From Campylobacteraceae bacterium (GTDB lineage Bacteria > Campylobacterota > Campylobacteria > Campylobacterales > Arcobacteraceae), in NCBI GenBank assembly GCA_013373175.1, contig JABXII010000013.1:1-64000 (forward strand): 64,000 bases of DNA, in the 5' to 3' direction. Position numbers and translations under genes: made by a program. How positions within the stretch are numbered: position 1 is the stretch's first letter; every line of letters begins with the position of its first letter. Shown one piece after another: positions 17,098 to 30,431 of the stretch. Under the pieces are notes generated by a model. It saw only the letters and a program-made list of their open reading frames with translations, did not search any database and was not told where the DNA came from.

Positions 17098-18255
17098 TTA
17101 CTCCTCTTCTAATAAGTGTTCATATCTTTTGTCAGTTAATAGTTTCATAAATGCAACTAAAGCATCTATTTTTCTATCATTTTGTTTTTTTGCTTTTAAA
17201 TCATCTAAGGAAATAGTTTCTTCAACTTCAGGCTCAGCCCAAGGTTTTCCTGTTTCTGGATTTATCTTTCTTTCTTTATTATTATACTTATCATAAAACT
17301 CAACTACTGTTCTTAGGTCTTTAAATACACCATTATGCATATATGGACCAGTTACTGCTACATTTCTTAGTGTTGGAACTTTGTGTTTTCCTAAATGTTT
17401 TTTATCAGTAACTTCAGGGTTTGCTAATAATCCTTTATCAATATCTTTTACTCCATTTTTAGCTCTTAACTCATGGTTAATAGGTGTTCCTATGTTATGG
17501 TACTCATAGTTTGTAAAAGTTTCACCTTCTGAGTCTTCTGGTTTATTAAGGTGACAATTTGCGCAAGAATTATTTGCATTTGAGAAAAATAGTGATCTTC
17601 CTAAATCTTCAAGTGGAGTTAAATCATATTCTCCTCTTAAAAATCTATCATATTTTGAATCAAAAGGAGCAAACTCTTTTGTTTGTTCAAATTTCTCAAT
17701 TGAATCAGTCATTGCTGTATAAGCTTTTTCATTTGATAAGAAGATATCTTCTCCATAAATATTTTTAAAAGTCTCTATGTAATAAGGGTTTTCTTTAAGT
17801 CTATCTACAACAGCTTTTTTAGACGGCATTCCCATTTCAATTGGATTTGTTGGAGGACCTCCTGCTTGTCCTGCTAAAGTACCTTCTCTTCCATCCCAAA
17901 ATTGACCACCTATATATTGATCACTTTTTTTATCATAATGAAACTTTGGACTAAACATAGCATAAGCTGCACTTGGTGCTTGTCTATCACCTAAAGATTT
18001 TTTGTTATCTCCCATTGATGCCATTGCTTTTATACCATTGTCTCTATCATCAACAAAACCTCTTTCTGGGTTATGGCACGTAGCACAAGCTTGAGATCTA
18101 TTTTTCGATAAGTTTTTATCAAAAAATAAGACTTTTCCTAATTGTTCTTTTTGTTTTATTTGCTCTTGTAACTCTTGCTTTGATAAAGTAGAGTTTGTAC
18201 AACCTGTAACAAGTAAAACAGCAGTTGCTAGTGCAACTAAATTTAAATATTTCAT
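17098..18255 (-). CDS. Di-heme cytochrome c peroxidase/MauG-family lipoprotein
   Basis: A 385-residue di-heme protein with a lipoprotein signal (LLVTGC, C19), heme sites CATCH (57-61) and CANCH (231-235), and the family segments GLLANPEV and KVPTLRNVAVTGPYMHNGVF. It would use electrons from cytochrome c to reduce hydrogen peroxide or oxidise another substrate in the periplasm. It is the last gene of a five-gene operon with two imelysins, a di-heme oxidase and a membrane hydroxylase; its start overlaps the previous stop by 1 base. The Fur boxes upstream predict iron control. Confidence 0.88.
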   Translation of the reverse strand: MKYLNLVALATAVLLVTGCTNSTLSKQELQEQIKQKEQLGKVLFFDKNLSKNRSQACATCHNPERGFVDDRDNGIKAMASMGDNKKSLGDRQAPSAAYAMFSPKFHYDKKSDQYIGGQFWDGREGTLAGQAGGPPTNPIEMGMPSKKAVVDRLKENPYYIETFKNIYGEDIFLSNEKAYTAMTDSIEKFEQTKEFAPFDSKYDRFLRGEYDLTPLEDLGRSLFFSNANNSCANCHLNKPEDSEGETFTNYEYHNIGTPINHELRAKNGVKDIDKGLLANPEVTDKKHLGKHKVPTLRNVAVTGPYMHNGVFKDLRTVVEFYDKYNNKERKINPETGKPWAEPEVEETISLDDLKAKKQNDRKIDALVAFMKLLTDKRYEHLLEEE

Positions 18256-19157
18256 TAACTTCTCCTTCTTAAAATATTTATAAATGGTAATAGTAATAAG
18301 TTTTTTATTGAGCAGTAATCTTTCATTTGCTCTTTTCTAAGTCCAAATTTTAAAACTTTAACTTCATTTGATAATTTCAATGTTCCAAAAACTCTGTCCC
18401 AAAGAGCTAAATATCCTCCATAGTTTTTGTCAAAAAAATCTTTACTATGATGAATTTGATGTTGTTTTGGTGAAATAAGCCATTTTTCTAAGAAGCTAAA
18501 ATATCCAAGAGGAATATGAGAGTGTCTTAAGTTTGAACCTAAAAAAGAAAAAAGAAATACAAAAATATTAGCTCCGATTACTTCAACAATTCCAATTTTT
18601 GAACCAAAGAAATACAAAAATACTCCAGTTGTAAGACCTATACTTAAAGAGTATCTAAAGCCAAAAAGAATATTTTCTATTGGATGAACTCTATAAAAAG
18701 TTAGAGGATTTAAAACCTTTGCACTATGATGTATCTTGTGAAATTCCCAAAGAAAAGGAATTGTATGAAGAAATCTATGTAGCCAATATCTTGTAAAGTC
18801 ACTTATAATAAAAAGTGTAATAGTGTACATAATAATTACTACTTCATAAGAAAGAGTATTTATATGATTAAAGCCAAACTCTAAATATAGAATTTTTCTT
18901 ATATACAATGCAACACTATTTGCGCTAATTACTATTGGAAAGATTATTGCAATTTTAATAAAGTATGAAAGAATAAAGTAGTAGTAATCAAGTTTTGCAC
19001 TTGGGTGTAGCCATAAGGCTTTTGATAGGTTTGTTCTTATGTATTTTTTATTAAAGTATAAATAAATCATTGCAATAGCAATTGATGAGATAATATAAAC
19101 CCAGAAAGTTCTTTTATCTGGGTTTATTAAATACTCAAAGAGTAAAAGGTCATTCAC
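18255..19157 (-). CDS. Sterol desaturase/fatty acid hydroxylase-family membrane di-iron protein
   Basis: A 300-residue integral membrane protein with the histidine clusters of the superfamily: HRFLH, HKIHH, a further H in FYRVHP, RHSH and HQIHH. These bind two irons that activate oxygen to hydroxylate or desaturate a lipid-like substrate. About four to five membrane helices. It lies between an imelysin gene (2 bases) and the peroxidase gene (1-base overlap). A hydroxylase is an unexpected member of an imelysin/di-heme operon; its substrate is unknown. Confidence 0.85.
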   Translation of the reverse strand: MNDLLLFEYLINPDKRTFWVYIISSIAIAMIYLYFNKKYIRTNLSKALWLHPSAKLDYYYFILSYFIKIAIIFPIVISANSVALYIRKILYLEFGFNHINTLSYEVVIIMYTITLFIISDFTRYWLHRFLHTIPFLWEFHKIHHSAKVLNPLTFYRVHPIENILFGFRYSLSIGLTTGVFLYFFGSKIGIVEVIGANIFVFLFSFLGSNLRHSHIPLGYFSFLEKWLISPKQHQIHHSKDFFDKNYGGYLALWDRVFGTLKLSNEVKVLKFGLRKEQMKDYCSIKNLLLLPFINILRRRS

Positions 19158-19159
19158 TT

Positions 19160-20143
19160 TTAGTCACCATCAGCATCAATGATTTTTGCGTTAATAGATA
19201 ATTCTTCAATTAAATCTAAAAAAAGAACAACATGAATTGTATTTGTTACTTCATAAAGCTCTTTTGCATCTTTAAAATCATCATTTTTAATTTTCTTATT
19301 TAGTGAAATTGCTTTAGTAATAGAATCTCTTAAAACTTTAACTTGTTTATTATGAGTTAAGTCTTCAAGATAGTTTCCATAATCATAGTAATGTTTAGTA
19401 TTAAAAACATTTTTGTATGTATTTAAAATAGCACCAATTGCTAAAGAAGAGTTTTTACTAAGGGCATATTCACCTCTTTTATTATCAAAATTGTCTTTAT
19501 ATTTTTTACTTGTACCTAAAATATCTCCAATTCTCCACTCTTTTAATTTATAAGTATTTTGGATTAATCTATTGATTAAAATTCCATTTGCTTTTTTTAA
19601 GTCACTTAAAAAAGTTTTATGTAATGCTTTATATTCATTATTGATATCTTCAAGATGAGACTTGATTCTTTTTACAATAGTAAGAGTTAATTCATTTACT
19701 CTTTTATTTTTAATATCTTTTGTATATAAAACATATTCTAAGGCATTTATTGATTTAAGTGAGTTTTTAAATAGAGCAATTCTTGGGGCATCATCACTTT
19801 TAATAGCTCTGTCTAATTGTATTTTGATATCTTCATTTCCATGATGATAAATATCAATTAATCTTGGTGTATCAATATAGTCTTCATTTAAATCACCTAA
19901 GATATAAACTGATTGAACACTTTTCCATGATTTAACAAAGTTTTTAAAAGCTTGTTTTGCTTTTTCTTCATTATTATTTGAAACTTCATTTTCTAAAGTT
20001 TTAATATCCTCTAAAACTTTTTGTGAATCTTTTAAAATCACTTGTTCATAAATGTTGTTTAATGCTTTTTGATTTTTATCAACAGCCGCATTTGAGATAG
20101 TAACTAAACAAAGTATTGCTAGAACTATTTTTAATATTTTCAT
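19160..20143 (-). CDS. Imelysin-family periplasmic protein with degenerate motif
   Basis: A 327-residue secreted protein (signal peptide to about residue 19) of the imelysin/EfeO-like family. The helical repeats and WKSVQSVYILGDL segment match the family, but the signature GxHxxE is altered to SINALE around residues 131-136: the histidine position is Asn133 while Glu136 remains. This suggests weaker or changed metal binding compared with the paralogue at 21514. It follows the di-heme oxidase by 1 base. Imelysins are iron-regulated and likely bind iron; none is shown to be a peptidase here. Confidence 0.75.
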   Translation of the reverse strand: MKILKIVLAILCLVTISNAAVDKNQKALNNIYEQVILKDSQKVLEDIKTLENEVSNNNEEKAKQAFKNFVKSWKSVQSVYILGDLNEDYIDTPRLIDIYHHGNEDIKIQLDRAIKSDDAPRIALFKNSLKSINALEYVLYTKDIKNKRVNELTLTIVKRIKSHLEDINNEYKALHKTFLSDLKKANGILINRLIQNTYKLKEWRIGDILGTSKKYKDNFDNKRGEYALSKNSSLAIGAILNTYKNVFNTKHYYDYGNYLEDLTHNKQVKVLRDSITKAISLNKKIKNDDFKDAKELYEVTNTIHVVLFLDLIEELSINAKIIDADGD

Positions 20144-20144
20144 T

Positions 20145-21548
20145 TTATAACCTTTCTAAAAATTGTATTAATTTTTTTCTTTTTTCTTTAGGTAAGTGAG
20201 TATAAGCTTCTTTTGAAGCTTTTGCTTCTCCATCGTGCCACAGAATTGCTTCTTGGAAATCTCTTGCTCTACCATCATGCAATAATCTTGGTTTTTTACC
20301 ATTGATTTTTTCATGCAAACTTAAACCCCATAAAGTAGGAGTTCTCCACTCACTTCCACTAGCACTAAATTCTGTTCTTCCATCTGCTAATCCTTCTCCC
20401 ATATCATGAAGTAATAAATCAGTAAATGGAGAAATGTTTATACCACTTTTTGTAGTAAAAGATTCTTTATGACAATCTGCACAACCAATAGATTTAAAAA
20501 GTTTTAATCCCTTTTTATAAGAGTCATCTTTTTTAGCACTATATGTTTGTCTTTTTTTTATATAAAAATCAATAGCTTGAAGTCTAGAATCAGGCAAATC
20601 AATTTTATGCCTAGCTTTTGGAGCTTCTTTACAAGCTATTTGTTTATCAGTACATCTATCTTCTGTGAAAATTGTGGTTGTTAATCCCATGTCATTTATT
20701 GCAGCATCTGCTGTTTGATGTATTAGGGATGTATTATTTGCTTTCCAAGAGTATTTACCTATCTCTTTTTTCTTTGTAATTGGTGAATATGCATAATTCA
20801 CACGTCCAGAAATTCCATCTTTATTTTTATCAAATTCATCTGCATTTGCTAATATTTGTTCATCAGGAATATCTTCTATTAGTCCTAAACCATTTAAAGA
20901 GGGTGCAATTCTAAATGTTATAATAGTATCTTTGTGTAATTCTCCATATTGTAAATCATTTAATACATAAGTAGGCTTTAAAATAGTATCAACTTCACCA
21001 TCTGGAAACTTCACTTTAAGTTCTTCAAATTTTATTTCTGGTTTTGCTTCAAATCTTGCATCAGGTGTTCCATTTATAGCAATTTGACCACCATAAGTTG
21101 GTTCTGGGATTAAGGGGTTTGTTTTTAAAAACTCTAACTCTTCTTTTAAACCCTTTGAAGGAATTGAAAGTTTAGGAATAACAGACCTTGATAAACTACC
21201 GTTTTCATTGTATAAATTACCTCTTCCATTGCTTGGATGACAACTATTACAGGTATTTGCATTAAATAAAGGACCTAATCCATCTCTAGCAGTAGTTGCA
21301 CTTGGAGCTTCAACCCAAGGAATTTTGAAAAAACTTCTTCCTAAAATAAACTTATCGTACTCTTCATTAGATAAAGAGTCTATATGTTTAACTAAAGTTT
21401 TTTTATCTTGTTTATGAGTTATTTCAGAACTATTAGCTAAAACCGCAAAAAGCCCAGTAGCAAAAAGTGCTACGAGGCTTTTATTTATAAGGGTTTTATT
21501 AATTGATTTGAAATTATAGTTTTGTTTCTTCTGGATCTGTAACATCAT
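20145..21548 (-). CDS. Di-heme oxidoreductase, putative thiol oxidoreductase (DUF1111 family)
   Basis: A 467-residue periplasmic protein of the COG3488/DUF1111 family with heme sites CNSCH (100-104) and CADCH (356-360), TLWGLSLHEKINGKKPRLLHDGRA near the C-terminus, and an N-terminal signal-like helix (LVALFATGLFAVLA). The proposed start overlaps the end of the imelysin gene by 35 bases; a shorter start inside the first 20 residues is possible. The family regularly neighbours imelysin (IrpA) genes and is thought to handle electrons for iron or thiol chemistry, but the reaction is unproven. Confidence 0.85.
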   Translation of the reverse strand: MMLQIQKKQNYNFKSINKTLINKSLVALFATGLFAVLANSSEITHKQDKKTLVKHIDSLSNEEYDKFILGRSFFKIPWVEAPSATTARDGLGPLFNANTCNSCHPSNGRGNLYNENGSLSRSVIPKLSIPSKGLKEELEFLKTNPLIPEPTYGGQIAINGTPDARFEAKPEIKFEELKVKFPDGEVDTILKPTYVLNDLQYGELHKDTIITFRIAPSLNGLGLIEDIPDEQILANADEFDKNKDGISGRVNYAYSPITKKKEIGKYSWKANNTSLIHQTADAAINDMGLTTTIFTEDRCTDKQIACKEAPKARHKIDLPDSRLQAIDFYIKKRQTYSAKKDDSYKKGLKLFKSIGCADCHKESFTTKSGINISPFTDLLLHDMGEGLADGRTEFSASGSEWRTPTLWGLSLHEKINGKKPRLLHDGRARDFQEAILWHDGEAKASKEAYTHLPKEKRKKLIQFLERL

Positions 21549-22854
21549 CAGTACTTAAAGAAATTCCATTCGCATTTGCAATTGTAACCATTTCATCACC
21601 AAGTTTTCTCATTTGATTTTTAAGTTTTACAATAACTTTTGCCATTGGGTTATCTGGCTGAATTTGGTAATCAAAGTGTTCTTTTGTTTTTGCTGTTTTA
21701 TCAACTTTTGCAATTTTCTCTTCAATTGAAGTCATTAAAGCAATAATTCTAGTTTTGTCTTCTTTTGAAACTTTATCTAATAATGATGGACCATAGTCTT
21801 TACCATTATATGTAGAAGTTAAAATATTTTTGAAACCTAAGTAGTTTGTTACAATATCTCTATGTGTATTGTCTGAGAAGCAAGAGTGCTCATCTTCTTC
21901 AGATGGTGTTAATACAGCAACTGCAATTCTTTCATTTGCAAGTTCTGATTTAATAAATACACCCATACCCGCAATAACTTGTTTTAATGCTTCTTCTTTA
22001 GATAAATTCTTAGCAGCGTCTTTTCCTGTTAATTTTCCTTGGAATGCTGCTTGATATAAACCATCTTTATTCCAAGCTGAAGTAACAGTTTCTAAATCAG
22101 AAACAATTTTTTGTGCAGAAGCTTTTAAGTAAGATAATCTTCTTGGTGCATTTACATCTGAAGTAAAGTCAGAAAGTGGTCTTTGACCTGCTGTTAATGG
22201 TCCATTTGTAATTGAATCTTTTACAAAGTTAGAGTAGTCTTGATCTTGTCCCCATAATAAGAACTCAACGGCATGGTATCCAGTAGATACATTTGCCTCA
22301 CCACCATTTTCATTTAAGTCAGTTAAAGAATCAACAGTAATTGAAGTTACATCAACAGTTGATGAATCTTCTCCACCTGGATTAAACTTACCTTTCGTAT
22401 CAATAATATTTCCAGTAGTTCTTTCACCATTAGCATCAATAGTATAGTCAATCATATTTTCATCTAGTGGCCAAGCATTTAATTGTCCTTCTAGTGCACC
22501 ATATTTTTCTGCTACCCAACCTTCTTCTGCATCAATTGGACCATTTGAAAGTCTGAAAATTTCAGTTTGTCCATAAGACTCTCTAGAAACTAACCAAGCA
22601 TCTTTTGCTGCTTGTAAATTTTTTTCTGTAGGATTTGCTGCAAATTTATTAATAGCATTTTGTAATGCTTTTGCATCTTGAAGTGCATCATTGTAGTTAT
22701 CATGTGCAATCATTGCATAAGCACTTAAAACATCACCTTTTTGTATATTGTGGTGTGAATGTACTTTTGAATCTGCATTTGAAGCTGCACAACCAGCGAA
22801 TGCTAGAGCTGCTGCAAAACTAATACTTGCTGCTAATAATTTTGTTTTGTTCAT
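21514..22854 (-). CDS. Imelysin-family iron-regulated lipoprotein (IrpA-like)
   Basis: A 446-residue lipoprotein (lipobox AFAGC, C22) of the imelysin/IrpA family with the intact motif GYHAVEFLLWG (G192, H194, E197) and the conserved WLVSRESYGQTE. Members are periplasmic or outer-membrane anchored and bind iron in structural studies of EfeO-like relatives. It is the first gene of the five-gene operon; Fur-box palindromes at 22878-22892 and 22936-22960 lie just upstream of its ATG. That is direct sequence support for iron-repressed expression. Confidence 0.88.
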   Translation of the reverse strand: MNKTKLLAASISFAAALAFAGCAASNADSKVHSHHNIQKGDVLSAYAMIAHDNYNDALQDAKALQNAINKFAANPTEKNLQAAKDAWLVSRESYGQTEIFRLSNGPIDAEEGWVAEKYGALEGQLNAWPLDENMIDYTIDANGERTTGNIIDTKGKFNPGGEDSSTVDVTSITVDSLTDLNENGGEANVSTGYHAVEFLLWGQDQDYSNFVKDSITNGPLTAGQRPLSDFTSDVNAPRRLSYLKASAQKIVSDLETVTSAWNKDGLYQAAFQGKLTGKDAAKNLSKEEALKQVIAGMGVFIKSELANERIAVAVLTPSEEDEHSCFSDNTHRDIVTNYLGFKNILTSTYNGKDYGPSLLDKVSKEDKTRIIALMTSIEEKIAKVDKTAKTKEHFDYQIQPDNPMAKVIVKLKNQMRKLGDEMVTIANANGISLSTDDVTDPEETKL

Positions 22855-23614: not shown

Positions 23615-24064
23615 ATGAATATTAAACATGGAATGACATTTGATGCATTTTTAAAAAACTTCAAACTGCACGTATCAAAGCTTGGATTTAAAAACTCAAT
23701 TCAAAAAGATTATATTTTAAAAATTCTTTTTTACTCAGATGAACATTTAACAGCAGAACAAATAGCCTTCAAAGTAAAAGAAGAATATAACATTGATGTT
23801 GGAATTGCAACAGTTTATAGAACAGTTAAGTTTTTTGAAGATTTAGGAATTGTTGATAACTTAGATGTTGGAGATAGTGTAAAAAGATATGAACTTAAAA
23901 TTTCTGAACATCATGATCATCTAGTTTGTACTTCTTGTCATAAAATTATTGAATTTTCAGATGATATAATTGAAGAAAAACAAGAATCAATTGCAAAAGA
24001 TAATAATTTTGTTTTAAAAGACCATGCAATGATAATTTATGGACTGTGTGAAGATTGTCAATAA
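23615..24064 (+). CDS. fur: Fur-family transcriptional regulator, probably Fur itself
   Basis: A 149-residue Fur-family repressor: an N-terminal winged helix (LTAEQIAFKVKEEY...ATVYRTVKFFEDLGIV), then the metal-binding segment HHDHLVCTSCHKIIEFSD and the terminal CEDC pair. ISEHHDHLVC is typical of Fur rather than PerR or Zur. It would bind Fe(II) and repress the TGATAAT-type boxes found in this window. It follows the 40-residue peptide by 2 bases and is preceded by its own Fur boxes. A second family member, at 56775, is better read as Zur. Confidence 0.85.
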   Translation: MNIKHGMTFDAFLKNFKLHVSKLGFKNSIQKDYILKILFYSDEHLTAEQIAFKVKEEYNIDVGIATVYRTVKFFEDLGIVDNLDVGDSVKRYELKISEHHDHLVCTSCHKIIEFSDDIIEEKQESIAKDNNFVLKDHAMIIYGLCEDCQ

Positions 24065-24073
24065 AATAAGATA

Positions 24074-25927
24074 ATGAACATAAACAAAAAGGTCTCACTT
24101 CTTTTTATAATAATCTTTATATTCTCTTTTTCTTTAATCTCTTTTATTGTAAAAAGTAGGGTTGTAAATATAGAAAATATTGAAAAAAAGATTATTATAA
24201 ATAATATAAAAAAAGTTCAAAGTATATTAAATAACTATTATGAGAAAGTAGATAATATAAGTTATGAATACTCAACTCATGATTTACTTTTAAACTATAT
24301 AAAAAATAGTGATACAAACTCTTTAAACAACTTTTTTATAAATAAACCTGATTTTATGAAGAAATTAAATTTATCTTACTTTATTTTGCTTGATGAAAAT
24401 AAAAACCCTTTAATTTCAAAATATTATGATTTAAGTTCTGAGGAGCAAATGAGTGTTCCTGATGAACTTTATGTTTTTCTAAAGCAGTTAAATTTAGAAA
24501 AGCTAAATGAAAACAATAAAAATAGATATATAACTCTTAATTTTGAGAAAGTACTTTTTAGTTTAGAAAAAGTTTTAATCAATAATGAACTATCGGGATA
24601 TGTATTTACAGGAAGAGTTATAAATTCTACATTTTTAACTAAGATAAGTGAAATAATAGGTGACTATGGAAGTTTAGTTAGTAGTTATGAAGAAACTAGT
24701 TTTGATAAAATCAATTTTGAAAATGAAAATATTGATTATAAGATAAAAATTCAAGATGAACAAAATCTATTTTACTATTTAAGTTTCTATGACATTTTAG
24801 AAAATAAAAAATTCTTTATAAGATTTCAAAACAGTAGAGAAGTATATAATAATATGATAGTAGAGTTAAAATATATTTTAGCACTATTTATAGCACTGCT
24901 TCTTATAACTGTTATTGTCTTTTTTATCTTTATAAATAAACTTTTTGTAAATAGAATTAATTATATTGCAAACATAGTTAAAAAAGTATCTTTAAATGAA
25001 ACCTTGAAGTATCAACTAAAAGTAAGTTATGACGATGAGATTTCTTATTTAATTAGAAGAATAAATGAGATGTTTCGTGTAATAAATGCCCAACAAGATT
25101 TAAACTTAAAAAAAGAGAGAGACTTTTTACAGTCTGTACTTGATACTCAACAAAATATTATCATGATAACTGATGGAAAAGAGATTCAAAGTGTAAATAG
25201 AAAGTTTAAAGAAATATTTTTTAATACAGAAAACTTTTTAGAAAACATAGCCTTAATTGACAATAGAACAAAAGCAAACTTTATGGCTGTTGCAAAAAGG
25301 TATAATAATAAAGATATGCCTGCAAAATTTAGTCTTATGGATAATCAAGAGAAGTATTTTACTTTTCAAGTTTCAAAATTAGATTGTAGAAAATATTTAA
25401 TTTGTATGAATGATGTATCTACATTAAATCATAAAATAAAGCATCTAACTTTTAAAGCTAATATAGATGAGTTAACAAGCGTTTATAATAAATCAACAGT
25501 TACTAACTATGCAAAAAAATGGCTTGCAGATAAAGATTTTTCAATGATTATTTTTGATATTGATTATTTTAAAAAGATTAATGATAATTACGGACACTAT
25601 GTTGGTGATTGCATTTTAAAAGAGATGACAAAACTTATTTCACAAGAGATTTCAAAAAGCGATATTTTAGGAAGAATAGGTGGAGAAGAGTTTTTACTTT
25701 TAATAGATGATACTTCAAGTATAAATGTTATTAAAATTGCAAATAGAATAAGAAAAATAGTTGAAAAGAAAGTATTTGCAATTGATGAACATAGAATTTT
25801 TGTAACAATTTCAATGGGGTGTACAGTGTGTATTTTCGACGAGAAATTTGAAACAATATATAAAAGAGCAGATGAAGCTTTATATGAAGCAAAAAAAACA
25901 GGTAGAAATAAAGTAATATTTTATTAA
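24074..25927 (+). CDS. Membrane diguanylate cyclase with periplasmic sensor domain
   Basis: A 617-residue sensor cyclase: membrane helix (about 8-28), periplasmic sensing region (about 35-265), second helix (LALFIALLLITVIVFFIFI), HAMP-like linker, a PAS-like segment (about 350-440) and a GGDEF domain with GGEEF at 536-540. The active-site motif is intact, so it should make cyclic di-GMP; the inhibitory-site Arg of RxxD is replaced by Ser (SKSD), so product inhibition may be lost. It starts 9 bases after fur, which may couple it to iron-responsive transcription. Confidence 0.85.
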   Translation: MNINKKVSLLFIIIFIFSFSLISFIVKSRVVNIENIEKKIIINNIKKVQSILNNYYEKVDNISYEYSTHDLLLNYIKNSDTNSLNNFFINKPDFMKKLNLSYFILLDENKNPLISKYYDLSSEEQMSVPDELYVFLKQLNLEKLNENNKNRYITLNFEKVLFSLEKVLINNELSGYVFTGRVINSTFLTKISEIIGDYGSLVSSYEETSFDKINFENENIDYKIKIQDEQNLFYYLSFYDILENKKFFIRFQNSREVYNNMIVELKYILALFIALLLITVIVFFIFINKLFVNRINYIANIVKKVSLNETLKYQLKVSYDDEISYLIRRINEMFRVINAQQDLNLKKERDFLQSVLDTQQNIIMITDGKEIQSVNRKFKEIFFNTENFLENIALIDNRTKANFMAVAKRYNNKDMPAKFSLMDNQEKYFTFQVSKLDCRKYLICMNDVSTLNHKIKHLTFKANIDELTSVYNKSTVTNYAKKWLADKDFSMIIFDIDYFKKINDNYGHYVGDCILKEMTKLISQEISKSDILGRIGGEEFLLLIDDTSSINVIKIANRIRKIVEKKVFAIDEHRIFVTISMGCTVCIFDEKFETIYKRADEALYEAKKTGRNKVIFY

Positions 25928-25942
25928 AAAAATAATATTTGT

Positions 25943-25957
25943 TGATAGTGATTATGA
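25943..25957. promoter_or_regulatory. Fur box of the ferrosome-like cluster
   Basis: TGATAGTGATTATGA matches the 7-1-7 Fur consensus at 12 of 14 positions and lies 55 bases before the first gene of the cluster. It predicts repression in iron-rich cells. Confidence 0.6.
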
Positions 25958-26012
25958 CTTTATAATAAGTTGTTATTAAGAATAAGATACAATAATTACA
26001 AAAAGGAATTAA

Positions 26013-26327
26013 ATGATAAGTACTGAAGATATTATTAAAATAGCTAGCTATTTTACTGTTATAGCTCATACTCCTGGAAGACTAAGAGTAAGAGTAAATC
26101 CAAAAATTAAAAATGAAAGTGGAAATATCACTTTAGAAGATATTGAAAACTTACCAGAAAAAATAGATGGAATAAACAGTATTAAAATTAAAAAAATAAT
26201 AGCTTCTGTAACTATTACTTATGATCCAACTGTTTTTCCTCCTAGGTTATGGGATGATTTAATAGAAAATAGAAACTTAAGTGAAATCACAGAGCTAATA
26301 AATAGTTTAGCAAAGGAGGTTGTGTAA
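26013..26327 (+). CDS. HMA-like small protein with an arginine-rich motif (ferrosome-like cluster, gene 1)
   Basis: A 104-residue protein with a predicted beta-alpha-beta HMA2-like fold but no CxxC metal site. The segment VIAHTPGRLRVRV (about 18-30) carries a histidine followed by alternating arginines; a similar H-x3-R element opens the P-type ATPase of the same operon. AAAGGA precedes the ATG. HMA-like proteins of this kind accompany P1B-6-type ATPases. It may act as partner or regulatory domain of the ATPase; that is inference. Confidence 0.65.
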   Translation: MISTEDIIKIASYFTVIAHTPGRLRVRVNPKIKNESGNITLEDIENLPEKIDGINSIKIKKIIASVTITYDPTVFPPRLWDDLIENRNLSEITELINSLAKEVV

Positions 26328-27005
26328 TTGGCAGCAAATTTAGATGAGGCTTTATTAGTAAGCCAGAGAATAGACGTAAATGACCCTCAACCAATAGTTT
26401 CTCAAGCACTTAGAATTGCTATTTATGATGAGTGTAAAGCATATGAAGCATATGTAAGAATAATTGAAAAATTTGGTTTAGTTCAACCTTTTGTGCATAT
26501 AAAGGAGTCTGAAGCTAGGCATTACCAAGCTTTAATTTCTTTATTACAAAAATATAATGTTGAAGTGCCAGTTAATGATTGGCATTTAAAAATTGAAGCA
26601 CCAAATAGTTTTGTTGAAGCTTGTGAATTAGGTGTGGCAAGTGAGATTCAGAATATCGCTATGTATGATAATCTTTTACAACATGTTCAAGAAGCAGATA
26701 TAAGAGATGTTTTTTATCAGTTACAAGCCCATTCATATAATAATCACTTACCAGCTTTTAGAAACTGCATTTTAAATCATTACACAGTTGCAAATGATGT
26801 TCAAGGTTTTAATCAAGCACAAGTAATGGAAAAAATTGGTGAATATCAGATGATATTAGAAGATATGCTAAATGGAAATATGGATGAAGCAAAATTGACA
26901 AATCTATTTTCTAAGTTAAATCTTTCAATGCTTTCAGGAGCAGCACTAGGCGCAGCAGGGGTTGCATTTTTTAATGACTACATGAATAAAAAAGATAAGG
27001 AGTAA
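26328..27005 (+). CDS. Ferritin-like protein (ferrosome-like cluster, gene 2)
   Basis: A 225-residue protein starting at a TTG (26328) directly after the previous stop, with a strong AAAGGAGGT ribosome site supporting it. It is a helical, ferritin-like (DUF2202-type) protein: AIYDECKAYEAYVRI (D34, E35), ESEARHYQALI with ExxH (E62, H65), a Glu/Tyr helix (E106, Y113) and HSYNNH (H135, H140). These residues could form a di-iron site. A GAALGAAGVAFF hydrophobic tail near the C-terminus could anchor it to a membrane. It may oxidise or store iron inside or at the compartment. Confidence 0.65.
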   Translation: MAANLDEALLVSQRIDVNDPQPIVSQALRIAIYDECKAYEAYVRIIEKFGLVQPFVHIKESEARHYQALISLLQKYNVEVPVNDWHLKIEAPNSFVEACELGVASEIQNIAMYDNLLQHVQEADIRDVFYQLQAHSYNNHLPAFRNCILNHYTVANDVQGFNQAQVMEKIGEYQMILEDMLNGNMDEAKLTNLFSKLNLSMLSGAALGAAGVAFFNDYMNKKDKE

Positions 27006-27008
27006 GTC

Positions 27009-27272
27009 ATGGCTTTACCATTTGTATTAGGACTAGCAGTAGGAGCGGGTGCAGTATACGCTTTTTCAAGATCAGATAAACTAAAAGACAAAGCAACATC
27101 ATTGTTTTCAAAATCAAAAGATGTAGCAAATACATCAATTGAAAAAAGTAAAGAAACAGTTGATGAGGTAAAAGATACTATAAATGCAACAGCAGCTTGT
27201 ATCAAAGAGAAAAAAGAACAGCAAAAAGTAGAAAAAGAAACTAATAAAGAAAAAAAAGAGGAAGCTAAATAA
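27009..27272 (+). CDS. YtxH-like small protein with one membrane segment (cluster gene 3)
   Basis: An 87-residue protein: a glycine-rich hydrophobic N-terminus (FVLGLAVGAGAVYAFSRSD), then a long Lys/Glu-rich amphipathic helix. This layout resembles YtxH-type proteins and, loosely, small structural proteins of bacterial organelles. Function unknown. It follows the ferritin-like gene by 3 bases and its stop overlaps the next start (TAATG). Confidence 0.6.
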   Translation: MALPFVLGLAVGAGAVYAFSRSDKLKDKATSLFSKSKDVANTSIEKSKETVDEVKDTINATAACIKEKKEQQKVEKETNKEKKEEAK

Positions 27273-27631
27273 TGAACCAACCTTTAATTAATAATCCAAC
27301 AAATCCTGTTTTAAGAAGTGTAATAACTGGAGCAATTGCATCAGCAGTTGCTTCTAGTACTATTAATATGAGAAAAGTTAAAAATGAAGAAATTTCTAAA
27401 AAAGAAGCATTAAAAGATACTTTAAAAAGAACTTCTCAAGGAGCAATTGCAACAGGAGCTGCTGTTGCTACTGCTGATTATCTATCTCAAAAGGGTGGAT
27501 TTATAAAAGCTATGACAACTATCTCTGTTGGAATGGCAGGAATTTATGCCTTAGAAGTTTTAGATGATAAATTAAATAAAAGTTGTGAACAGCAGTGTGA
27601 AGAAGCAACATTAATTGCAAAGGAGCAATAG
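27272..27631 (+). CDS. Small unknown protein with glycine/alanine-rich hydrophobic segments (cluster gene 4)
   Basis: A 119-residue protein with two Ala/Gly-rich hydrophobic stretches (VITGAIASAVASSTI and AIATGAAVATADYL), a third weaker one (TTISVGMAGIYALEVL) and a C-terminal Cys pair (SCEQQCEE). I do not recognise it. Small membrane-associated proteins with Ala/Gly packing motifs occur in magnetosome-type gene sets, which makes a structural role in an iron compartment a reasonable guess only. It overlaps the previous stop by 1 base and meets the next gene directly. Confidence 0.55.
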   Translation: MNQPLINNPTNPVLRSVITGAIASAVASSTINMRKVKNEEISKKEALKDTLKRTSQGAIATGAAVATADYLSQKGGFIKAMTTISVGMAGIYALEVLDDKLNKSCEQQCEEATLIAKEQ

Positions 27632-28033
27632 ATGAATCAAAATGGTAATCAAAATCCACAAAATATGAATATAAATCAAAATCAAATGAATACTATGAAT
27701 CAACAAAATATGTATGACCCAAATATTGATAACACAAGAGTTGGAGCAACTCCTTCTATGAATATAAATCAAAATCCATATATAAACCAAAATCAACAGT
27801 TTTCAAATGCACAACAAAATCCTCAAGATCAAGGTGTATTTAATAATGCTGATTTTGTTAAGGGTGCTTTAGTTGGTGCAGCTGTAACTTTTCTATTAAC
27901 AAATAAAGGTGCACAAGAAACTATTATGAAAGCTGCTTCAAAAGGAACTGAACTTTTTCAAGCTGGAATGGAAGAGTTAAAAGAGCGATATGAAGATGCA
28001 AAAGCGCAAATGGAAGCGAACCAAAATCAATAG
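27632..28033 (+). CDS. Asn/Gln-rich protein with YtxH-like C-terminus (cluster gene 5)
   Basis: A 133-residue protein whose first 70 residues are dominated by Asn, Gln, Met and Pro (repeats like NINQNP), presumably disordered. This is followed by a hydrophobic segment (FVKGALVGAAVTFLLTNKG) and an amphipathic helix (ELFQAGMEELKERYEDAKAQ). The C-terminal half mirrors gene 3. Low-complexity segments fused to a membrane helix suggest a scaffold role. No family assigned. Confidence 0.6.
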   Translation: MNQNGNQNPQNMNINQNQMNTMNQQNMYDPNIDNTRVGATPSMNINQNPYINQNQQFSNAQQNPQDQGVFNNADFVKGALVGAAVTFLLTNKGAQETIMKAASKGTELFQAGMEELKERYEDAKAQMEANQNQ

Positions 28034-28035
28034 CT

Positions 28036-30147
28036 ATGAGTAATAATTATAAAATAGTACACCAAACTAACAGAAGAGTTAGATATAAATATTCTTTATT
28101 AGATGATAAATATATTGATGGAAATATATTAAAAAAAGATTTAGAAAAATTAGATGGTGTAGAAAGTGTAAGAGTTAATAAAGTAGCAAAAAGTGTAGTT
28201 GTTAACTTTGAAAACTCAAAAGTTTTAGAAACAGTAGAAAATAGACTTAAAGATTTAACTCTTGATGATTTATTAGAATCATGCAAAAATGAAGCAGTAT
28301 GCGTGTCTTGTGTTAGTGATGAAGACCCTAGCATAAAAGGAATTGTAAGAGCAAGTTCTGCTTTAGTTGCTGAAAGACTTACTAAAAATAGTTTAATAAA
28401 AGCTACTGTTTCTTCTATTGCAGCTGCACCTTTATTACTTGAAGGAAGTAAAGAACTTTTTGAAGAAGGTCTTACTTCAAAGGTATTAGAAAGTGCTGCT
28501 GTTGGTATCTCTTTATATAGAAAAGATTATTTAGCTGCAAACTCTACTAATGCAATGTTAGAGTTAGGTGAATATATTGAAGAAACTACAGTACATAAAA
28601 GTGATGACTTACTAAAAGAACTTGCTAAACCAAATGTTGAAGAAGCATGGATTGAAAAAGAGATTGATGGAAAAATCACAGAAGTTTTAGTTAAAAGTGT
28701 TGAAATTAAAACTGGTGATGTTGTAGTTGTAGGTGTTGGAAATACAATTGCAGTTGATGGTCATATCTTAGATGGAAGTGCAAGTGTAAATGAAGTTTCT
28801 ATGACAGGTGAAGCAGAACCTGTTACTAAAAGAAGAGGGGATAGAGTTATCTCTGGAACTATCGTTGAAGATGGTAGATTAAGAATTTGGGCTGAATATG
28901 TAGGTGCTGATACTGCTACACAAAGAATTAAGCACTATATTGAAAATTCATTAAATGAGAAATCTTCTGTTCAATTAAAAGCTACGAAATTAGCTGATAA
29001 GTTAGTTCCTGTAACCCTTGGACTTGCTGGAACATCATATGTTTTAACAAAAGATTTTGAAAGAACAGCTTCTATTTTACAAGCTGATTACTCTTGTGCT
29101 TTAAAACTTGCAACTCCTGTTGCTTTTAAAACAACTATTTCAAAAGCAGGTAATAATGGTATTATGATTAAAGGTGCAAAATCTATTGAATCTTTAAGTA
29201 GTGCTGATACCTTTGTTTTTGATAAGACTGGGACTTTAACAGAAGGGGAACTTGAGGTTATTTCTGTTGAATCATATGACGAAGAGTGGACTGAAGAGGA
29301 TGTTTTAAATCTTACTGCATCAACAGAAGAACACTACTTTCATCCTGTTGCTGAAGCTGTTGTAAAAGCAGCAAAGGAAAAAGGTTTTGTTCATATGCAC
29401 CACGAAGAAGTTGAGTTTATTGTAGCTCATGGGGTAAAAACTGAAGTTGATGGAAAACAAGTTGTTATTGGAAGTAGACACTTTTTAGAAGACGATGAAA
29501 AAATTAATTTTGGTAAAGCAAAAGCAAGAATTCAAAAATCATTAGATAAAGGAGAAACTCTTCTTTATATAGGTTTTGATGGAAAACTTTTAGGAACTAT
29601 CTCTTTAGCTGATAATTTAAGAAAGAACACAAAAGCTTCTATTCAAAAGTTAAGAAAGCTTGGTGTTAATAATATAGTTATGCTTACAGGAGATACTAAG
29701 AAAAAAGCTTCAATGATAGCTAAAGAGCTTGATATTGATGAAGTAAGAGCAGAACTTTTACCAACTGATAAAGCACGAATTATTAAAGAGCTTATGGACG
29801 AAGGTAGAAAAGTTGCTTTTGTTGGAGATGGAATAAATGATGCTCCAGCGTTAATCTCTTCTCATGTTGGTATTTCAATGAGTAGGGGAGCTGATATTGC
29901 AAAAGCTACAGCTGATGTTAGTTTATTAAAAGATGATATTGCAGCTGTTGTGGAAGCAAAAGAGTTAGCTAATAACACTATGAAGTTAATTAACAATAAT
30001 TTTAATGCTACAGTGGGAATAAATTCAGCTATCTTAGCAGGAGCTACGTTTGGATTGTTCTCGCCAATACAAACAGCAGTACTACATAATGGTACTACTA
30101 TAGGTTTACTTTTAAACTCAATTAGAGGTGTAAAAGTAAATAAATAA
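28036..30147 (+). CDS. fezB: P1B-type metal ATPase, FezB-like (cluster gene 6)
   Basis: A 703-residue P-type ATPase with TGEAEP (T257), DKTGT (phosphorylated D396), the P1B HP motif (H436, P437), TGD and GDGINDAP. The membrane metal motif is SCA (353-355) followed by TP, not CPC or SPC. The N-terminus lacks CxxC and instead has HQTNRRVRYK (9-18) ahead of an HMA-like fold. These traits fit the P1B-6 group including FezB, needed to make iron-storing ferrosomes in Desulfovibrio, Shewanella and Clostridioides. Iron as substrate is inferred from that family, the Fur box and the ferritin-like neighbour. Symbol tentative. Confidence 0.75.
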   Translation: MSNNYKIVHQTNRRVRYKYSLLDDKYIDGNILKKDLEKLDGVESVRVNKVAKSVVVNFENSKVLETVENRLKDLTLDDLLESCKNEAVCVSCVSDEDPSIKGIVRASSALVAERLTKNSLIKATVSSIAAAPLLLEGSKELFEEGLTSKVLESAAVGISLYRKDYLAANSTNAMLELGEYIEETTVHKSDDLLKELAKPNVEEAWIEKEIDGKITEVLVKSVEIKTGDVVVVGVGNTIAVDGHILDGSASVNEVSMTGEAEPVTKRRGDRVISGTIVEDGRLRIWAEYVGADTATQRIKHYIENSLNEKSSVQLKATKLADKLVPVTLGLAGTSYVLTKDFERTASILQADYSCALKLATPVAFKTTISKAGNNGIMIKGAKSIESLSSADTFVFDKTGTLTEGELEVISVESYDEEWTEEDVLNLTASTEEHYFHPVAEAVVKAAKEKGFVHMHHEEVEFIVAHGVKTEVDGKQVVIGSRHFLEDDEKINFGKAKARIQKSLDKGETLLYIGFDGKLLGTISLADNLRKNTKASIQKLRKLGVNNIVMLTGDTKKKASMIAKELDIDEVRAELLPTDKARIIKELMDEGRKVAFVGDGINDAPALISSHVGISMSRGADIAKATADVSLLKDDIAAVVEAKELANNTMKLINNNFNATVGINSAILAGATFGLFSPIQTAVLHNGTTIGLLLNSIRGVKVNK

Positions 30148-30172
30148 AAGTAGAAGGTTTTCTTCTACTTTT
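30146..30172. terminator. Bidirectional terminator after the P-type ATPase
   Basis: AAAAGTAGAAG and CTTCTACTTTT form a perfect 11-bp stem with a 5-base loop between convergent genes, flanked by A and T runs. Confidence 0.8.
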
Positions 30173-30431
30173 AGCTATCTTTAGAAATTTTCATTAAATT
30201 TACATACCAGTCTTCATCAACTGTTTCTAAATCAATACTTGATAGAACTATCTCTAAATTATATGCATCATTTACATTTAACTCTTCAATAAGTTCTTCT
30301 GGAATAAATAGTGCTTCTGTGCAGTAACTAAATAGTTGTTCTTCGCATTGGATATCTTCCATACCCCAACCATCTTCAAATTCACTTACTACAAAATATC
30401 TTTCTGGTTCAACTTTACTCTTCAAGTACAT
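30171..30431 (-). CDS. Small unknown acidic protein after an ABC operon
   Basis: An 86-residue acidic protein (EFEDGWGMEDIQCEEQLFSYC) without recognised family. The ATG at 30431 is almost touching its AAAGG ribosome site, so the in-frame TTG at 30425, at five bases from AAAGGA, may be the actual start. It lies 15 bases after the ABC permease gene on the same strand and is probably the third gene of that operon. Two cysteines; no signal peptide. Confidence 0.5.
   Translation of the reverse strand: MYLKSKVEPERYFVVSEFEDGWGMEDIQCEEQLFSYCTEALFIPEELIEELNVNDAYNLEIVLSSIDLETVDEDWYVNLMKISKDS

Follow-up and report, generated by a model that had tools for sequence, protein, structure and literature searches.

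Ferrosomes are membrane-bounded iron stores, and Grant et al. are said to have reported a six-gene operon for Shewanella putrefaciens in 2022. In Rhodopseudomonas palustris, ferrosome formation relies on six fez genes (PMC12016538) that are co-regulated with iron genes (PMC6879726); in Clostridioides difficile, fezXAB is repressed by Fur and required for vesicles that contain amorphous iron phosphate (PMC12574912, PMC11533511). FezC is a cytochrome (PMC10979944). Here, we analyze a 64,000-nucleotide stretch of DNA from a Campylobacteraceae bacterium (GenBank assembly GCA_013373175.1, contig JABXII010000013.1, positions 1 to 64,000; the window), in which six abutting genes, g1 to g6, appear to form a ferrosome-type (fez-like) operon for a membrane-bounded iron store, a reading to which we give a probability of roughly 0.78 from sequence comparison. 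It is favored by the phylogeny of the ATPase, by partner genes shared with distant proteobacteria, and by a link to Fur, as well as by a six-gene order that is kept phylum-wide, the presence of g2 and g4 only together with the ATPase, the kinship of g4 with the magnetosome protein MamC, and the ferritin fold of g2. An initial annotation of the window had already proposed a ferrosome-type cluster; the ATPase phylogeny, the shared gene content, and the Fur link speak for that proposal, whereas two of its further claims, the absence of a CxxC motif from the ATPase and the novelty of the YtxH-like proteins, did not survive.

By description, the fez operon of R. palustris CGA009 (RPA2333-2338) is like the locus studied here in having six genes, a metal P-type ATPase, and a link to iron regulation, while C. 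difficile fezXAB and Desulfovibrio magneticus fezABC, likened to it in the same way, also combine a P-type ATPase with small membrane protein partners. Where the fez genes of C. difficile are under Fur control (PMC12574912, PMC11533511), we find a Fur-box-like site. Unlike fezABC, the Campylobacterota operon is without the DUF4405-like cytochrome FezC and has more small membrane proteins. The locus and its immediate upstream neighbors comprise the following features:

23615-24064, + strand: Fur-family regulator, 149 amino acids (PF01475, 8.8e-34)
24074-25927: GGDEF protein, which separates the Fur paralogue from g1 in the window
25943-25957, + strand: Fur-box-like site TGATAGTGATTATGA, 70 bases before g1
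26013-26327, + strand: g1, HMA_2-like protein, 104 amino acids (PF19991, 9e-7, just below the Pfam cut-off)
26328-27005, + strand: g2, ferritin-like protein with a C-terminal membrane-prone segment, 225 amino acids, TTG start (DUF2202, 1.2e-7)
27009-27272, + strand: g3, 87 amino acids, N-terminal GxxxG membrane-prone segment followed by a charged helix
27272-27631, + strand: g4, MamC homologue, 119 amino acids (NF038051 match)
27632-28033, + strand: g5, YtxH-like protein, 133 amino acids, disordered N/Q-rich start and GxxxG segment at residues 73-91
28036-30147, + strand: g6, FezB-like P1B-type ATPase, 703 amino acids (TIGR01525, 2e-145)
30145-30173, + strand: hairpin, likely a terminator, 13 pairs with only 3 G-C, from a consensus scan only

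The open reading frames and coordinates of the six abutting genes and the closing hairpin, all on the + strand, agree with the initial annotation, and family matches (HMA_2, DUF2202/rubrerythrin, TIGR01525) bear out its HMA-like first gene, ferritin-like second gene, and heavy-metal P-type ATPase. It had credited each of the small proteins with one membrane-prone segment, which understates the matter, since the 119-amino-acid g4 has two and g2 also has one (residues 197-215).

With respect to the ATPase, a maximum-likelihood tree of 44 sequences resolves a single clade (100/100) that holds all 24 cluster ATPases and excludes CopA and ZntA of E. coli, with the ATPases of the Azospirillum, Telmatospirillum, Vibrio, Cereibacter, and Lautropia clusters as clade partners of g6. 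The phylogenetic check suggested with the initial annotation thus places g6 outside the copper and zinc exporters CopA and ZntA, and gene content together with the R. palustris report (PMC12016538) suggests that it belongs within the proven FezB group. The SCA of the membrane motif (DYSCALKLATPV) and the Arg-rich N-terminus are readable in the sequence as first described; this N-terminus is HMA_2-like, carries R-x-R, and stands in place of the metal-binding MxCxxC domain. The statement that the protein has no CxxC was wrong, for the linker that follows the HMA_2-like domain contains C89-V-S-C92. This motif is outside that domain and is not conserved, being found among the sequences compared in the Arcobacter group and Sulfurovum only and absent from the Campylobacter and Helicobacter members.

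The same protein also scores above the cut-off of the cadmium family TIGR01512, which lends something to a different explanation, namely an exporter of ferrous iron (or another divalent metal) in the plasma membrane, with the small proteins as scaffolds and no vesicle. Export is the usual function of P1B ATPases, and pumps of this kind can have small membrane partners with a single segment, as with the PacL proteins that stabilize CtpC in mycobacteria. Such an exporter is nevertheless unlikely in view of the position of g6 apart from CopA and ZntA and of family searches in which DUF1490 matched none of g3, g4, and g5. P-type ATPases with HMA2-domain neighbors that lie near the cluster ATPases in the tree are encoded on a Gloeothece plasmid (L039) and a Priestia plasmid (L196), and these loci may be further compartment systems; the Gloeothece locus carries DUF5132, a family that some g5 proteins match weakly.

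The operon is probably iron-controlled, judging by its upstream sequence. The site TGATAGTGATTATGA agrees with the Fur consensus TGATAATNATTATCA at 12/14 positions, none of 100 shuffles being as good, in line with the Fur box that had been placed before the operon in the initial annotation. Across 61 loci, the mean best Fur-site score was 10.6 versus 9.2 in shuffles, with a Fur-box-like site 69-78 bases before g1 in about 24 of them. Furthermore, a Fur homologue occurs in 37 of the fetched stretches, often directly upstream of g1; the one in the window (23615-24064), one of four Fur-family genes, is 46% identical to the best-scoring Fur of the genome. A Fur-box-like site points to expression under iron limitation, a condition in which there is no need for export, and this also argues against a plasma membrane exporter.

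The gene content of the operon recurs at great phylogenetic distance. A plasmid cluster of Azospirillum brasilense encodes an HMA2 protein, an HMA-like protein, a g3-like GxxxG protein, a g4-like protein, a YtxH-like protein, and an ATPase that is 54% identical to g6 over residues 130-701. It thereby has g1, g3, g4, g5, and the ATPase in common with the Campylobacterota operon, which differs in having a ferritin-like gene instead of the second HMA2 gene that lies upstream in Azospirillum. Related sets were found in Vibrio sp. THAF190c, Cereibacter, Telmatospirillum, Azoarcus, Lautropia, and three Rhodospirillales genomes. HMA-like, MamC-like, and YtxH-like proteins are therefore not new to Campylobacterota, and the claim that YtxH-like proteins are new components of such a system has to be dropped, because one is present in each of the alpha-, beta-, and gammaproteobacterial clusters whose gene content was read completely. 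A search for FezB found it in at least 2 of 289 alphaproteobacterial and at least 2 of 369 gamma/betaproteobacterial genomes, counts that are lower bounds because the limit applied (E 1e-130) is strict.

Among the small proteins, g1 has an H-x-x-G-R-x-R motif that is nearly invariant in 22 relatives, and in g3, whose membrane-prone segment spans residues 1-19, G8 and G12 are invariant in 19 relatives including Azospirillum. A match of g3 to GvpT was seen in only 2 of 19 members and was read as charged-helix similarity. Residues F75, G78, G82, and L89 of g5 are invariant in 22 relatives from four proteobacterial and campylobacterial groups; its score against YtxH (PF12732) is 17.4 bits, under the 37.5-bit cut-off, with 9 of the 22 relatives reaching a match at an E of up to 0.1. 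The YtxH-like proteins combine a conserved membrane segment with a disordered head of varying composition, which is long and Pro/Gly/Met/His-rich in some loci (L184-L186, L036, L037) and Asn/Gln-rich in Campylobacterota.

Within Campylobacterota, an orthologue of the ATPase is present in 23 of 41 genomes of relatives, and the order g1 to g6 around it is kept in nearly all of those that bear it. The ferritin-like g2 has a strong match in 22 of these 23 relatives and two weak matches only (about 1e-7) in the 18 without the ATPase, while g4 is present in 22/23 and 0/18, respectively; g2 and g4 therefore belong to the system. In a sample of the phylum, the ATPase (E up to 1e-150) was found in 136/397 genomes, about a third, and in 28/68 genera. 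A scan of named genomes for a FezB-like fragment gave 317 loci, and the best 80 of them are mainly from Campylobacterota, with Azospirillum, Telmatospirillum, Lautropia, and Azoarcus in addition. Campylobacterota carriers among these best 80 are Arcobacter, Aliarcobacter, Poseidonibacter, Malaciobacter, Helicobacter pullorum, H. rodentium, H. apodemus, Campylobacter concisus, C. showae, C. gastrosuis, Sulfurospirillum, and Sulfurovum. The six-gene order is conserved phylum-wide (Arcobacter, Campylobacter, Helicobacter, Sulfurospirillum, and Sulfurovum), and its recurrence in nearly all Campylobacterota loci examined shows that the arrangement is not due to chance.

Several variants of the locus were observed. 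The entire operon is present on Arcobacter p133 plasmids (133 kb; L034, L038), one of which has TonB-dependent receptors and a ChaN-like protein close by; L038 has the reading frame of the ATPase broken into two annotated genes. Reduced clusters (L060 from genome G037, L121, L137, and L140) retain the HMA-like protein, the YtxH-like protein, and the ATPase, with no ferritin-like or MamC-like protein recognized. A contig labeled Desulfosporosinus (L095) carries an operon version typical of Campylobacterota, and its label or binning is therefore probably wrong. Between g1 and the Fur-like gene, several genomes encode a second P1B ATPase (L073:523-2721, L085:250-2490, L098:639-2810, L104:641-2761, and L051-L054), which has an SCPCATVL membrane motif, shares about 30-33% identity with g6, and forms a clade of its own (100/100).

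The ferritin-like protein g2 matches DUF2202 with 32 bits versus a Pfam cut-off of 22 bits. Its predicted model is a four-helix bundle with a predicted local distance difference test score (pLDDT) above 95, the C-terminal part being poorly predicted, and in a fold comparison, residues 21-158 of the model aligned with bacterioferritins (Z 16.8) and with MJ0754 of Methanocaldococcus jannaschii (DUF2202, PDB 3q4r; Z 16.3, with 29% of 133 aligned residues identical). MJ0754 shares the four-helix ferritin fold, but g2 differs from it in its C-terminal extension with the membrane-prone segment at residues 197-215, in the replacement of one di-iron ligand, and in always standing beside the ATPase. 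The gene was recognized in Campylobacterota and Lautropia only, in Lautropia at the same position between g1 and g3, and is thus lineage-specific.

Could g2 itself be the iron store, with no lipid vesicle and an ATPase that only supplies or drains iron? The ferritin fold is in keeping with such a store, but the related alpha- and gammaproteobacterial clusters have all components except the ferritin-like gene, the tail of g2 is membrane-prone, and two ordinary ferritin-family genes are present at other places in the genome, all of which makes this very improbable. Far closer to even odds, if a little short of them, is the proposal that g2 is a structural part of the compartment that has kept the ferritin fold while its metal site decays, and is no iron enzyme. 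Position 137, that of the sixth ligand, is occupied by Tyr or Phe in 43 of 51 members and by Glu in none, so that the full six-ligand di-iron site is not found, and several Campylobacter members have lost E62, H65, and H140 with g2 still in the operon. On the other hand, most members keep five of the six ligands (E35 in 45, E62 in 38, H65 in 40, E106 in all 51, and H140 in 41), and the distant relative MJ0754 was crystallized with Zn2+. With ligands degenerate in part of the phylum, an iron-oxidizing role is therefore unproven, and g2 may be a tethered iron-handling or scaffold protein.

The homology of the 119-amino-acid g4 to MamC had escaped the initial annotation. In a single-sequence scan, the only match of g4 was the magnetosome protein MamC (NF038051, 2.3e-5), at 24.6 bits versus a curated cut-off of 100, i.e., as a homologue and not MamC itself. 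Sixteen of 23 g4 cluster relatives match NF038051 (best 8.8e-9), and no other family recurs among the 23. True MamC sequences were collected from genomes of the order of Telmatospirillum, 18 of which have a protein above the MamC cut-off, and hhalign of 13 Campylobacterota g4 sequences versus 7 MamC sequences gave a probability of 96.1% (E 3.3e-9, score 54.8, 93 columns). Control scores against MamC were at most 18.2 for 40 column-shuffled profiles, about 15 for reversed ones, and about 20 for the g5 and g3 profiles. A composition artifact was rejected because shuffled and reversed profiles score far lower (at most 18.2 versus 54.8) and the YtxH-like and GxxxG profiles are unmatched. Common ancestry of g4 and MamC is thus well supported at the sequence level, and a MamC homologue points to an organelle rather than to an exporter.

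MamC of magnetotactic alphaproteobacteria is like g4 over its whole length, with two membrane-prone segments joined by a helical loop; unlike MamC, g4 adjoins an ATPase and lies outside any magnetosome operon, and among the signs looked for, no other sign of a magnetosome was seen in g4-bearing bacteria. The predicted structure of g4 is a three-helix model (pLDDT 90), for which a fold search against the PDB returned nothing at E up to 0.001. Three Rhodospirillales genomes encode MamC-like proteins of intermediate score in clusters of the order HMA, MamC-like, YtxH-like, ATPase, and the closest non-magnetosome relatives of MamC that we found are in FezB-type clusters. In a g4/MamC tree, which has long branches and is built from a short protein, MamC groups with the Vibrio/Cereibacter/Rhodospirillales g4 lineage (97/97) rather than branching outside both cluster lineages. 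We tentatively propose, while doubting it somewhat more than we believe it, that MamC descends from a protein of a ferrosome-type operon, so that two membrane-bounded iron organelles would share a component by descent; the direction, from ferrosome protein to magnetosome protein, is offered as a suggestion. A literature search found no description of a Campylobacterota ferrosome operon or of a MamC link within a coverage that leaves out the founding ferrosome papers (Grant 2022, Pi 2023).

Under a ferrosome-type operation of the locus, low iron would cause Fur to leave the site at 25943, and the six proteins would be made. The FezB-like ATPase, in a patch of the inner membrane, would pump ferrous iron to the far side, which is the future vesicle lumen, with the HMA_2-like g1 and the matching N-terminus of the ATPase probably delivering or gating the iron. 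Small proteins of the MamC-like, YtxH-like, and GxxxG types would probably be packed into the membrane and give the vesicle its shape or its coat, and the ferritin-like g2, tethered by its C-terminal segment, would probably bind or oxidize iron at the cytoplasmic face or act as a scaffold. The filled vesicle would then be an iron reserve. The sequences themselves show which genes are present, their order and conservation, the ATPase phylogeny, the folds, the kinship with MamC, and the Fur-box-like site, whereas iron as the substrate, the direction of transport, the formation of a vesicle, the topology, and the roles of the individual proteins are all inferred. Several observations weigh against the ferrosome-type reading: the ATPase tree is without proven FezB sequences (R. 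palustris, S. putrefaciens, D. magneticus, and C. difficile), the metal substrate of g6 is not readable from sequence, family searches (E up to 1) found a DUF4405-like FezC in none of the proteins of the operon, the Fur-box-like site was not seen in the Helicobacter members among the 61 loci, and several g2 proteins of Campylobacter and related bacteria are without most di-iron ligands.

Elsewhere in the window, a divergent neighbor operon (17098-22854, - strand) encodes imelysin-like, di-haem oxidoreductase-like, sterol desaturase-like, and MauG-like proteins; operons of the imelysin/di-haem oxidoreductase/MauG type are often tied to iron uptake. In the region, a consensus scan found 3 terminator-type hairpins versus 1.1 expected, and a region scan found promoter-like sites at a frequency not above that in shuffles.

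If the ferrosome-type reading is true, such stores would be common in Campylobacterota, whose members range from gut and food-borne bacteria (Campylobacter concisus, Helicobacter pullorum, and Aliarcobacter) to species of vents and sediments, and culturable hosts would be on offer for ferrosome tests. The ferritin-like g2 suggests that protein-based and membrane-vesicle iron storage meet in these bacteria, and the MamC homology provides a concrete, testable link between ferrosomes and magnetosomes. The view of iron storage and of survival under iron limitation in Campylobacterota would change accordingly.

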